From positions 177,811 to 241,810 of the forward strand of contig NZ_QGTR01000004.1 of assembly GCF_003182275.1 (NCBI RefSeq): a stretch of 64,000 nucleotides of DNA. The letters are read 5' to 3'. Under the pieces are notes generated by a model. It was not told where the DNA came from. It was given only the letters and a program-made list of their open reading frames with translations, and did not search any database. Positions 6,499-10,578 of the stretch are shown piece by piece. This DNA comes from Hoeflea marina. GTDB lineage: Bacteria; Pseudomonadota; Alphaproteobacteria; Rhizobiales; Rhizobiaceae. The position numbers and the translations under genes were made by a program. Position 1 is the stretch's first letter. The number at the start of each line of letters is the position of its first letter.

Positions 6499-6589
6499 TT
6501 TTGCAAAGCTCCACAGCGACCGCCCCGTCGCCTTCCGGCAAGAGCGATTTCGCCCTTGCCTTCCCGCTTTCGGCGTGCGCCTATGCCGC

Positions 6590-7486
<897 letters not shown>

Positions 7487-7621
7487 CGGCCGCCGCGACC
7501 GCCGGCTTCAGGATGCGCCGGGAATCACCGTCTGGGGTGTCCCGCTGGATTTAGACAGAGCCGGCCTCGAATGAACGCGCTTCATCTCATTCCGCGGGGG
7601 CAACCATATGCCGCTCAGCGC

Positions 7622-7717
7622 TCATCTGTAGCCGGTCATCGGCACGTCCGCCGTCACCGCCTGCAATGTCAGCTTCGATTTCGCCAATGTCGGCTTGGTG
7701 TACTCGCGCTTTGTCAT
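7622..7717 (-). CDS. RiPP-precursor-like micro-ORF A (31 aa)
   Basis: A 31-codon ORF with a strong ribosome site (AGGGAGG, 4 bases before ATG 7717). The peptide begins MTKREYTKPTLAKSKL, continues TLQAVTA and ends in a short tail DVPMTGYR. It shares residues 1-23 with two neighbouring micro-ORFs (consensus K-x-x-Y-x-KP-x-L-x-KS-x-L-x-LQ-x-x-TA), while the tails differ. The Y-x-x-P-x-L element followed by a Thr one residue before the putative cleavage site resembles lasso-peptide leaders read by RRE domains. The tail of 8 residues is too short for a lasso ring. No maturation enzyme is adjacent. The translated peptide and its processing are inference. Confidence 0.72.
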   Translation of the reverse strand: MTKREYTKPTLAKSKLTLQAVTADVPMTGYR

Positions 7718-7804
7718 CCTGCCTCCCTGGAACCGCCGACATCTGACAATGCCGGCTTGCCTAGACCCGCCGGTTCCACAACCGAACGGGCACCGAGACA
7801 GTCG

Positions 7805-7900
7805 TTACTTGTCGCCGCTCACGAAGGCGCCGGCCGTCACTGCCTGCAGCGTGAGGCTTGATTTCATCAGGGCGGGCTTCGCGTAGACGCGCTTGTTCAT
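7805..7900 (-). CDS. RiPP-precursor-like micro-ORF B (31 aa)
   Basis: A 31-codon ORF starting at ATG 7900 with TGGAGA seven bases upstream. Its first 23 residues (MNKRVYAKPALMKSSL then TLQAVTA) match ORF A at most positions, and its tail is GAFVSGDK. A consensus-like sigma70 promoter lies 49-77 bp upstream. A 7-bp hairpin (CTGCGGG/CCCGCAG, 7916-7935) sits between that promoter and the ribosome site. ORF A starts 87 bp downstream on the same strand and may be co-transcribed. The conserved-leader, variable-tail pattern is that of a RiPP precursor family. Confidence 0.74.
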   Translation of the reverse strand: MNKRVYAKPALMKSSLTLQAVTAGAFVSGDK

Positions 7901-7937
7901 GGTCGATCTCCAGGTCTGCGGGTGAAGTCCCGCAGGC

Positions 7938-7977
7938 AATATGCGCATATTCTAATTTTTTATATTCGGAAGGTCAA
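7938..7977 (-). promoter_or_regulatory. Promoter and palindromic operator of the micro-ORF cluster
   Basis: On the minus strand, TTGACC (7977-7972) and TAGAAT (7954-7949) are separated by exactly 17 bp, a near-consensus sigma70 promoter in a locally AT-rich patch. A perfect 14-bp palindrome, AATATGCGCATATT (7938-7951), covers the end of the -10 and the expected start site, an ideal position for a repressor. Which protein binds is unknown. Confidence 0.7.
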
Positions 7978-8152
7978 GGCTCAGAATGGGGTTGGCGACC
8001 AGTCCCCATAGAAGAGTCCCCAGGCTGCTGTGCAGCCGCACGCCCGCAGCACCACCGGCGGCGGTGAGACCGGTCCGTCGCAACTCACGGCCTAAGGCTC
8101 CGCCCGAGCCATGCGTGCGGCGCAATTGTCAGCCCGGATCAGGATTCTGCGG

Positions 8153-8254
8153 TCAAGGGGGAGGCGATCCCGTCGGGGGGGCGACCGCGGTGGCTGACTG
8201 CAGGTTCAACCTGGATTTCGTCAGTGTCGGCTTTGAATAGGTCTGTTTGATCAT
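8153..8254 (-). CDS. RiPP-precursor-like micro-ORF C (33 aa)
   Basis: A 33-codon ORF starting at ATG 8254. The first 23 residues (MIKQTYSKPTLTKSRL then NLQSATA) follow the same pattern as ORFs A and B. The tail is proline-rich (VAPPTGSPPP) and ends the frame. AAGG lies about 11 bases upstream; an in-frame ATG seven codons earlier (8275) exists but lacks a ribosome site and has no counterpart in A or B. It is 252 bp upstream of ORF B and 168 bp from the tautomerase gene, all on the minus strand. Confidence 0.7.
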   Translation of the reverse strand: MIKQTYSKPTLTKSRLNLQSATAVAPPTGSPPP

Positions 8255-8422
8255 GCTCTTGCCTTGCAATTTCATGCCGCCGCTTTTCGCCCGGCGAAAG
8301 CAAGCTAGAAGGTTATGCGCCTGCAGGCAAGCAACATCCCGACGGCGGCTTGGCCGGAGCGGCGCACCGGGTCCGGTCAGGGCGTCGGCGGGCCGGGCAA
8401 AGGCTGCCCGGCCCGCCGGGCA

Positions 8423-8638
8423 TCACTTGGACGCCATCGCCCGGATGTCGGCGGCACTCGGCGTGTTGCCGCCGATGCCCCACTGGCCGCTGCGGATCTC
8501 CTTGACGCGGACCCAGGTGACGCCGCGCATCGCCTCGCCTTCCACCTCCACCATGGCATTGGTGACCTTTTCGATCATCTGCGCCTTCTGGGCGGTGTCG
8601 AACACACCTTCAATCACTTCGATGTCGACCAACGGCAT
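8423..8638 (-). CDS. 4-oxalocrotonate tautomerase family protein
   Basis: A 71-residue protein beginning Met-Pro, so processing exposes the catalytic N-terminal proline of the tautomerase superfamily. The sequence then follows the 4-OT pattern (PLVDIEVIEGVFDTAQKAQMIEKVTNAM, a central MRGVTWVRVKEI strand and a short hydrophobic end). It probably acts as a cytoplasmic homohexamer on an enol or dienol substrate that cannot be named from sequence. CAGGAG precedes the start. It diverges from an HxlR regulator, and a perfect dyad lies midway between them, which suggests control by that regulator. Confidence 0.88.
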   Translation of the reverse strand: MPLVDIEVIEGVFDTAQKAQMIEKVTNAMVEVEGEAMRGVTWVRVKEIRSGQWGIGGNTPSAADIRAMASK

Positions 8639-8728: not shown

Positions 8729-8792
8729 CGTACTGGACCGCCGTCGCGCGCCGTGAGACCCTCCGCCAATGCTTCAACTGACAGGTGCGATC

Positions 8793-9521
8793 ATGTCGGA
8801 GACCGCCTACCCGCTGTTTTGCCCGGTCGCCATGGCGGCCGAGATCATCGAGCCGCGCTGGACCCTGCTGGTGCTGTGCGAATTGTGGTCCGGCTCGACG
8901 CGCTTCAACCAGATCCAGCGCGGCGTTCCCGGCATGTCCCCCGGCCTGCTCTCCAAGCGGCTGCGCGACATGGAGGCCAAGGGCCTGGTGATGAGAGTCG
9001 CCGGCCGCACCAAGGATTTTTCGGAATACCTCACCACGCCGCTGGCCGATGAACTTGAGCCCGTGGTGCGCCAGCTCGGAGAATGGGCGCATCGCAACAT
9101 CCGCAGCGAGGTGTCGCTCGATCATCTCGACGCAAGGCTGCTGATGTGGAACATCCGCCGCAAGATCAACAGGCTCGAACTGCCGCAGCACGCCTGCGTG
9201 ATCCAGTTCACCCTCAAGCACCCGCCGGGCGCGCCCGTCAGCTACTGGCTGGTCTTCAAGCCCGGCATCGAACCCGACCTCTGCTATGCCGACCAGGGGT
9301 TTCCCGTCGATCTCTTCATCATCAGCGAGTTGCGGGCGCTGACATCCGCCTGGATGGGTCACAGCAGCTTCGAGACCGAGATCGCGGCGGGACGGATCAG
9401 TCTCGTCGGCCACCAGATCATGGCGCGCAACCTCACCAAATGGCTCATCACCAGCAGCTATGCCGGGATCTGCGTGTCGGATGACGTCGGTTGTGCGTCG
9501 TCGCGGATCGCGGCCGAGTGA
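8793..9521 (+). CDS. HxlR-family winged-helix regulator with long C-terminal domain
   Basis: Transcription factor. Residues ~8-110 match the HxlR DNA-binding domain (CPVAMAAEIIEPRWTLLVLCELWSG, then RFNQIQRGVPGMSPGLLSKRL, then GLV.R and LTPLADEL-like stretch). The protein is 242 residues, about twice the usual HxlR length. The extra ~130 residues form a separate domain with a WLVFKPGIEPDLCYADQGFPVD stretch reminiscent of SCP2-like ligand pockets; a ligand-sensing role is inference. ATG 8793 (MSETAYPLF) was preferred to 8769 because CAGG precedes it. It diverges from the tautomerase gene, sharing a dyad operator. Confidence 0.88.
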   Translation: MSETAYPLFCPVAMAAEIIEPRWTLLVLCELWSGSTRFNQIQRGVPGMSPGLLSKRLRDMEAKGLVMRVAGRTKDFSEYLTTPLADELEPVVRQLGEWAHRNIRSEVSLDHLDARLLMWNIRRKINRLELPQHACVIQFTLKHPPGAPVSYWLVFKPGIEPDLCYADQGFPVDLFIISELRALTSAWMGHSSFETEIAAGRISLVGHQIMARNLTKWLITSSYAGICVSDDVGCASSRIAAE

Positions 9522-9963
9522 TCGGTCCCGGGTGCCCGGCTACGAGATTAACATTTGGGAGGGCTCACCCGTGTTTGAAGGCGGGAGCCTGAATGAAGAT
9601 GCTGAGCACGAAGGCCAAGCGGCGCGCGGCAACGCCTCCTCACCTGCAATTTCTAGCGCTTAACTGCATTAAGACGCTGAAATTGCTTCCTCTCCCACAG
9701 GGGAAATGTGGACATGCTGAAACCGCGGCCCGCACCGCCTCCCGCTTGAGGGGGGCCGGAGGACGGGCGAGACCCGTGGCTCGCCCAGGGAGAAGCGAGC
9801 GCAGCGAAGCTGATCCGGGTGGGGGTCGCGATGCAAACCGCGGGGGCGGAGTGTTCCGGTGGTCTCATAGCCCCACCCCAACCCCTCCCCTCAAGTGAGC
9901 TGACCCCGACCTGCAGAACTTGACGCACATGACCTGGAACCCACCGATGCGGGACGGCCGGCG
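9522..9963. other. 442-bp gene-free region with intergenic repeat-like sequence
   Basis: No convincing gene. From about 9675 to 9900 the sequence has the look of the short dispersed intergenic elements common in Rhizobiales: it opens with CTTCCTCTCCCACAGGGG, passes through GGCGAGACCCGTGGCTCGCCC and CGAGCGCAGCGAAGCTGATCC, and closes with CCCCTCCCCTCAAG. An imperfect hairpin (GGGCTC...GGGAGCC) lies near 9560-9590. It separates the HxlR gene from the end of the phnG operon. Confidence 0.45.
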
Positions 9964-10578
9964 TCAGGTCTCGTGGCGGTCGACGAATTCCTCAGCCGAT
10001 AGCAGCCGGAAATCCTCGAGCGCCGCGTGGAGCTTTTCATGCTCCCAGTCCCACCAGCCGAGCGCATCCATGCGCGCGCCGAGGCCGTTCTCGAACCGAG
10101 GCCGGATCAGCCTTGCCGGCACGCCGCCGACGATCATGTAGGGATCGACATCGCGCGAGACCACGGCGCCTGCGCCGATGACGGCGCCATTGCCGACCTT
10201 GACGCCGGGCAGGACGGTGGCGCCATGGCCGATCCAGACGTCATGGCCGATGACGACACCGTTCTCGCGTCGCCAGGCGAAGAAATCCTCCTCGTGGCTG
10301 GCGCCCTCGAAATAGTCGCCCGCGCGGTAGGTGAAATGGTGCAGCGTCGCCCGCCAGACCGGATGGTTGGTGGCGTTGATGCGCACATGGCTGGCGATGT
10401 TGACGAACTTGCCGATCTTCGCCGCCCAGACCTCGCATTCGCGCATCATGTAGGAATAGTCGCCCAGTTCGGTCTCGCTCACGGTGCAGCGCTCGGCGAT
10501 CTCGGTGTAGCGGCCGGCGGTCGAGGCCGTGACCACGGCGGTGGGATCGATCAGCGGGGTCTCGGACAGGCGGGTCAT
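9964..10578 (-). CDS. Phosphonate-operon hexapeptide-repeat acyltransferase
   Basis: A 204-residue left-handed beta-helix protein of the xenobiotic/chloramphenicol acetyltransferase-like group found in C-P lyase operons. Hexapeptide repeats run from residue ~15 to ~150 ([19 protein letters not shown], then [37 protein letters not shown]), with the inserted loop [21 protein letters not shown] before the catalytic segment. It is the last gene of phnGHIJKL; its ATG overlaps the phnL stop (ATGA). The acceptor is unknown; by context a phosphonate or ribosyl intermediate, or the detoxification of an aminophosphonate, is possible. Confidence 0.88.

Follow-up and report, generated by a model that had tools for sequence, protein, structure and literature searches.

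Very short candidate precursors of a cyclase-free RiPP system, and a putative maturation operon encoded in trans, in Hoeflea marina

Can three very short reading frames (A, B and C) on a contig of Hoeflea marina encode RiPP precursors, and if so, which enzymes would mature them, and into what? The frames lie in the window, which is the whole stretch of DNA that was analysed (64,000 nucleotides, on contig C4). A sequence-only reading had proposed that they are RiPP precursors matured by enzymes that act in trans. We found a dispersed family of such frames, together with a four-gene operon on another contig. At a probability of roughly 0.8, A, B and C would be precursors of a cyclase-free RiPP system that is related to the pathways of lasso peptides and of linear polyphosphorylated peptides (LPP), and that is matured in trans.

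Short reading frames with a common leader

The three minus-strand frames of 31, 31 and 33 codons that had been described were recovered as read, and are given here with the signals before them and with a degenerate copy.

7622..7717, minus strand: candidate precursor A, 31 aa, MTKREYTKPTLAKSKLTLQAVTA followed by the tail DVPMTGYR (ORF reading)
7805..7900, minus strand: candidate precursor B, 31 aa, MNKRVYAKPALMKSSLTLQAVTA followed by the tail GAFVSGDK (ORF reading and profile)
8153..8254, minus strand: candidate precursor C, 33 aa, MIKQTYSKPTLTKSRLNLQSATA followed by the tail VAPPTGSPPP (ORF reading and profile)
7508..7588, minus strand: degenerate fourth copy, MKRVHSRPALSKSSGTPQTVIPGAS (profile match, E 0.02, at C4:185324-185395, which is 7514-7585 of the window)
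7722..7726, minus strand: ribosome-binding-like GGAGG, 4 nt 5' of A (by eye)
7907..7911, minus strand: ribosome-binding-like GGAGA, 6 nt 5' of B (by eye)
7949..7977, minus strand: sigma-70-like promoter TTGACC-17-TAGAAT before B (10/12 consensus matches)

The strong ribosome sites claimed for A and B are thus present by eye as GGAGG and GGAGA, and the site of C is weak (AAGG, also by eye). The near-consensus promoter claimed for B also stood, since with its 10/12 matches it was the sole such site in 7450-8450, where shuffles gave 0.2 +/- 0.5. An upstream in-frame ATG is available for both B (7948) and C (8275). We preferred the shorter starts because the leader motif fits both, and the ribosome-like site of B fits too. 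The leader pattern had three matches in the window and none in 30 first-order Markov windows, for a pattern written post hoc with the ORFs already seen. The tails had been called completely different from one another while the leader was shared. The shared leader held; the complete difference did not, as all three tails have Ser/Thr-Gly in common at tail positions 5-6 (S/T-G is found in 7/9 copies in the genome).

A, B and C are bracketed by bluB (5,6-dimethylbenzimidazole synthase; 6761-7486, plus; TIGR02476, 292 bits) and a tautomerase-like gene (8423-8638, minus; PF01361). The latter lies upstream of C on the same strand. A cobalamin riboswitch (6577-6756, plus; Rfam RF00174, 92 bits) is found immediately 5' of bluB, and an HxlR-type regulator gene (8769-9521, plus) is divergent from the tautomerase-like gene.

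When peptide A was used as a single query, eight other places in its own genome were matched (E 2e-6 to 0.04). In a nine-member profile, the nine intact copies all scored E < 1e-14 and the decayed copy 0.02, the nine copies being those that built the profile; A, itself a member, scored 1.6e-17. The intact copies are distributed over five sites on three contigs: the window on C4 (3 copies), C1:273 kb, C1:880 kb, C2:424-427 kb (2) and C2:886 kb (2). Six of these, and the degenerate copy at 7508-7588 (in which Tyr has become His and LTLQ is lost), had not appeared in the sequence-only reading. A match on contig C10 has an internal stop in the DNA and was set aside as a probable chance match. At locus L009, an inverted repeat rich in G+C with a T run behind it, terminator-like by eye, was seen some 30-70 bases 3' of the precursor ending at 9851 (minus).

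The alignment of the nine copies has Y6, K8, P9, L11, K13 and Q19 invariant. Differences at codon positions 1/2/3 were 0.36/0.24/0.56 in the leader and 0.66/0.68/0.63 in the tail. Selection on the leader, which had been argued earlier, is supported by pN/pS, which is 0.48 in the leader and 1.09 in the tail (nine paralogues; related copies, not independent). The leader value understates the constraint, since synonymous sites are near saturation. The leader is conserved at the protein level and the tails are not, with no protein-level constraint on the tail as a whole.

Neither A nor B had an NCBIfam or Pfam match at E 1, and C had only a sub-threshold match to DUF5972 (14.8 bits; cut-off 22.6). 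The relatives tested also fell below the curated lasso-precursor cut-offs (best 17.6 for DUF5972, and 20.5 against 33 for NF033528).

A four-gene operon and its occurrence with the precursors

A genome_contigs scan with a four-row alignment yielded a single relative, locus L052 of a marine MAG (JAHJHT010000002.1); the scan used two strict peptide patterns, so divergent members would be missed. In L052, a 69%-identical precursor stands 5' of four genes that match an operon of the H. marina genome in kind and in order (proteins 44-58% identical). On the 3' side of the L052 operon are a formyltransferase gene, two more precursors (10142-10246 and 10399-10527) and an amine oxidase gene, and a P450 gene lies upstream. 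The H. marina operon is the following.

C3:102593-105405 (locus L066): RRE (PqqD), B2, HprK-like kinase and PF14907 nucleotidyltransferase genes, with overlapping gene ends

The B2 of this operon is the single PF13471 (B2-type transglutaminase fold) protein over the cut-off in this genome, and the own-genome profile search gave no precursor match on contig C3. The RRE, encoded at C3:102593-102898, matched PF05402 (E 8.6e-12), the B2 protein NF033537 (48.4 bits; cut-off 33) and the nucleotidyltransferase PF14907 (E 7.6e-22). The HprK-like kinase lies far from curated HprK models (TIGR04352, 24 bits; cut-off 200). By sequence, the nearest proteins were TfuB1 (6jx3) and TbiB1, both from lasso pathways, for the RRE profile and HPr kinases of solved structure (HprK 1jb1) for the kinase profile. 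B2 and the nucleotidyltransferase matched no solved structure at E 0.1.

The operon was compared across 15 genomes (14 of the 247 genomes of the MAG's family, plus the genome of the window). In all 15, no more than a few kb separate the genes for RRE, kinase and nucleotidyltransferase, and B2 adjoins the RRE and kinase genes in 14; in genome G657 it is on a different contig. PF13471 was over the cut-off in 15/15, and the NCBIfam B2 model in 5/6 tested, with locus L085 slightly under (31.9; cut-off 33). Conserved in 15/15 were the Cys and His of B2, the His, Walker Lys and Asp-Asp of HprK, and the Asp-x-Asp and Lys of the nucleotidyltransferase; the third position of the B2 triad is not Asp in 3/15.

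Within the MAG's family, the kinase profile matched 14/247 genomes. A precursor profile built from 31 sequences matched 13/247 at E <= 0.003, i.e. 13/14 operon genomes and 0/233 others (Fisher p 9e-21, ignoring genome relatedness). This bears out the co-occurrence with RRE and B2 genes that the sequence-only reading had proposed as a check. Eight of the 14 operon genomes had supplied sequences to the profile; among the six outside it, five have precursors (p 1e-9), and three at the stricter E <= 1e-6 (p 9e-6), relatedness being ignored in both. The independent matches are weak in G608 and G530 (best E 2.5e-4 and 0.0015), and operon genome G669 had no precursor match.

Homologues in related genomes, whose absence the sequence-only reading had named as refuting, were seen in part: the 13/247 genomes of the MAG's family have them, but none of 60 genomes related to that of the window, 17 of them from its genus, has a precursor match (E < 0.1). 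These 60 lack the kinase as well, so it is the whole system that is patchy. The window's genome seems to belong to the MAG's family, and if so the samples of 60 and 247 genomes overlap. The kinase was also absent from 384 other genomes of the class, a weak result as at most 5 candidates per genome were scored, and the nucleotidyltransferase had no match among plasmids.

In several of the operon genomes the precursors are dispersed; genome G657 gave 20 precursor matches, ten in a tandem row and the others elsewhere on six contigs. The row (L127:940-2747, plus) packs its ten members into less than 2 kb, with leaders alike and cores diverse and often Q-initial. At two loci (G657 L131:794-1141, minus; G595 L146:790-1167, minus), the leader of a precursor runs into a Peptidase_S74 domain (PF13884, chaperone of endosialidase) and there is no short tail. 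Two further supposed fusions of the leader to long proteins (L144, L159) were in fact short precursors ending long open frames that have no Pfam match.

The profile alignment placed Tyr at -17 or -18 in 96/98 precursors and Thr at -2 in 75/98 (7/9 in the H. marina genome, the other two being Val). The leader motifs observed were YxKPxLxKSxLxLQxVTA or YxKPxLxKRxKLxxVTA. In a tree of the four proteins, the genomes of the window and the MAG, with G657 and G688, stand apart from the rest (local support 0.999). The Tyr is at -18 in 37/39 precursors of this four-genome clade (two G657 exceptions at -17) and at -17 in 57/59 precursors of the other clade (two exceptions without YxxP). The leader spacing co-varies with the operon clade; the spacing of the Bsf lasso leader is -17 (PMC10368454). 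Maturation in trans, as first proposed, is favoured by the operon lying on another contig, by relatives in which precursors lie beside a homologous operon, and by the near-perfect co-occurrence.

Core peptides and the candidate pathway

The core set comprised 98 precursors with 95 distinct cores (median core 11 residues), from which we left out overlapping-locus duplicates (L163), one misaligned row (L157 518-730) and matches above E 0.02, including the degenerate window copy and one L090 match. In these counts, for which paralogues and genomes are related and not independent, a Ser/Thr was found within the first nine residues in 95/95 cores (shuffles 88.8 +/- 2.2; reached by 2/2000) and at core positions 3-7 in 90/95 (shuffles 70.0 +/- 3.9; 0/2000). 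S/T-G was found in 45/95 (shuffles 23.4 +/- 3.5; 0/2000). In the H. marina genome the Ser/Thr is at core position 5 in seven copies and at 3 in two.

From these proteins and peptides we infer all the chemical steps and the cut site. The stand-alone, PqqD-like RRE of the C3 operon would bind the leader (Y-x-KP-x-L...VTA), and the HprK-like kinase would phosphorylate the conserved Ser/Thr near core residue 5. The PF14907 nucleotidyltransferase would then add a group to the phosphate, as its pseudomycoidin counterpart is reported to do. The B2 cysteine peptidase would cut after Thr(-2)-Ala(-1), freeing a linear peptide of 7-11 residues, and an ANL adenylating enzyme and a GNAT acyltransferase would possibly acylate the product.

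Phosphorylation is proposed because HprK-like kinases phosphorylate core Ser3 both in LPP (LppK; PMC13381572) and in the Bsf lasso peptide (an HprK homologue; PMC10368454), and because the nucleotidyltransferase has a precedent in pseudomycoidin, where it is reported to attach hexoses to phosphate (PMC8498205). Against it stands the Thr, in place of Ser, at the site in A and C (2/9 own cores), as LppK does not accept Thr (PMC13381572). By analogy, the products are probably linear RiPPs that are phosphorylated and perhaps also acylated.

The acylation step, suggested as a possible one, comes from an AMP-binding (ANL) gene with an adjoining GNAT-family gene, a pair that seven genomes carry close to the operon (L084, L091-L096). 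In the H. marina genome, the C2:424-427 kb site has a homologous pair, inside C2:424461-426568, that is flanked by its two precursors (identity to relatives 52-60% for ANL and 38-52% for GNAT). A GNAT profile matched 8/247 genomes at E <= 1e-25, of which 8/14 were with the operon and 0/233 without (p 1e-11). Since seven of the eight had supplied sequence to the profile, this search adds mainly that the subfamily is not seen outside operon genomes. Among operon genomes outside the profile, 1/7 was positive (G688; p 0.03). The AMP-binding genes of L088-L090 were tried as partners and not counted, at 84-87 bits on the partner profile against >800 for its members; that of L088 has an acetyl-CoA synthetase N-terminus. 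Beyond the ANL-GNAT-precursor site of H. marina, a ketoacyl synthase and an acyl carrier protein are encoded (L011:12250-13848, minus), with no homologue at the other loci searched.

In the synthesis of PQQ and of mycofactocin, a peptide serves as raw material for a small metabolite. The cores studied here might likewise be a scaffold or raw material and not themselves the product. The PqqD-type RRE and the very short cores would fit this, and so would the neighbourhood of some operons or precursors, where there are genes for ANL, GNAT, P450, formyltransferase or amine oxidase. We consider it unlikely, though not negligibly so, given the high number and diversity of cores within one genome (the 20 matches of G657) and a Ser/Thr that alone is strongly shared.

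A cyclase-free system with linear products also has to be weighed against ordinary lasso precursors whose cyclase is encoded elsewhere. Lasso-type features are indeed present (the YxxPxL leader, mostly Thr at -2, RRE and B2), and the lasso cyclase model NF033535 was over its cut-off in 3/15 operon genomes. In these three, however, the cyclase sits with its own second B2, at a distance from the B2 of the operon.

G661, C1:5587549: second B2 and lasso cyclase over the cut-off
G518, C45:84270: second B2 and lasso cyclase over the cut-off
G599, C67:117499: second B2 and lasso cyclase over the cut-off

The distance is ~12-26 kb, and these genomes seem, by gene content, to carry a separate lasso cluster. 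A cyclase and second B2 beside a cyclase-free operon resemble the LPP-paeninodin cluster neighbourhood reported in Bacilli. The other 12/15 had no cyclase over the cut-off, and the operon regions proper had no Asn-synthase homologue at E 1. In H. marina the best NF033535 score was 187.7 bits (cut-off 525). Its two strong Asn-synthase homologues are best named as asparagine synthase and N-acetylglutaminylglutamine amidotransferase, and two low-scoring matches to PF00733 (29.8 and 21.9 bits) were absent from the NF033535 search at E <= 1e-20. A cyclase could lie in an assembly gap, since the assembly is 96.6% complete.

The cores were also examined for ring geometry. An acid at core positions 7-9 (the lasso ring position) was found in 23/95, somewhat above shuffles (15.7 +/- 3.1; reached by 28/2000), and this slight excess would favour a ring; 18 of the 23 come from G595 and G657. 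Cores that start with a small residue, carry an acid at 7-9 and extend at least three residues beyond it made up 6/95 (shuffles 6.5) and 0/9 of those of H. marina, in line with the earlier view that the tails are too short for a lasso ring. We rejected the lasso reading as highly improbable because the H. marina genome has no cyclase over the cut-off and its nine cores lack the ring geometry.

It is just as improbable that A, B and C are unmodified microproteins, with an RRE-like motif for some other protein contact and an indirect link to the operon, for while the unconstrained tails would suit this, the near-perfect co-occurrence of precursors with RRE and leader-peptidase genes and the leader spacing that tracks the operon clade speak against it.

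The reading as precursors of a cyclase-free RiPP system can be extended, tentatively and at somewhat below even odds, to a distinct alphaproteobacterial RiPP class. In such a class one operon would act on up to ~20 scattered tiny precursors, giving a pool of short linear phospho(glyco)-Ser/Thr peptides, acylated in many genomes by a dedicated ANL-GNAT pair.

Comparison with known systems

RiPP searches usually seek the precursor within a gene cluster. Cluster-based mining would be expected to miss the precursors of the window, since they have 31-33 codons, lie on contigs that differ from that of the presumed enzymes and passed none of the curated models tried. We found no description of the alphaproteobacterial system in the open-licence literature searched. 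Should the proposed chemistry hold, cyclase-free phosphorylated RiPPs would extend beyond the Bacillota and a lasso B2 peptidase would serve a non-lasso class. One enzyme set would draw on a dispersed library of precursors, a natural combinatorial peptide modification, and the tolerance of RRE and kinase for variable cores could be tested directly.

The candidate acylation has a parallel in the nostolysamides, RiPPs with acyl groups on Lys (PMC13060382, with 26 mentions of GNAT). Nostolysamides are class II lanthipeptides, whereas the pairing of ANL-GNAT with RRE-B2-HprK is known here from genomes alone.

Phosphorylated lasso peptides also share features with the present system. Paeninodin, pseudomycoidin (PMC8498205) and Bsf (PMC10368454) have an RRE (B1), B2 and an HprK-like kinase, and a Ser is phosphorylated; pseudomycoidin and Bsf also have the nucleotidyltransferase. 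Their leader carries YxxPxL at -17 to -12, and residue -2 is important for B1/B2. They differ in encoding a macrolactam cyclase, and Bsf has a Gly1-Asp8 ring (PMC10368454), whereas the H. marina genome is without a cyclase over the cut-off and few of the cores have ring geometry.

Closest are the LPP of Bacillota, cyclase-free phosphorylated RiPPs published in 2026 (PMC13381572). Both systems have a stand-alone RRE, an HprK-like kinase and an NTP transferase, with no macrolactam cyclase of their own. Both also have a Y-x-x-P leader, variable C-termini, a patchy distribution and, in some genomes, lasso clusters nearby. LPP use a SpI-type signal peptidase, and the present system has a B2 peptidase. 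LPP precursors are 35-200 aa long, with one to three per cluster, in contrast to cores of median 11 aa and up to 20 scattered precursor matches per genome. The LPP precursor motif YxxPxVLxHQxIxFETxxS is not that of the present precursors. LPP are called Bacillota-restricted, whereas the present system is alphaproteobacterial, with an ANL-GNAT pair in some genomes.

The sequence-only reading had expected a product class that is new, or no modified peptide at all. A precedent does exist in cyclase-free phosphorylated RiPPs (PMC13381572); what is new would be a B2-containing alphaproteobacterial variant. Judged by its genes, the system is not a lasso system, as neither a cyclase for these precursors nor ring geometry above the level of shuffles was found, and it is not LPP in the strict sense, given its different precursor motif and the B2 peptidase in its operon. 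From what its sequences suggest, it would best be described as a B2-containing alphaproteobacterial variant of the cyclase-free phosphorylated RiPPs.
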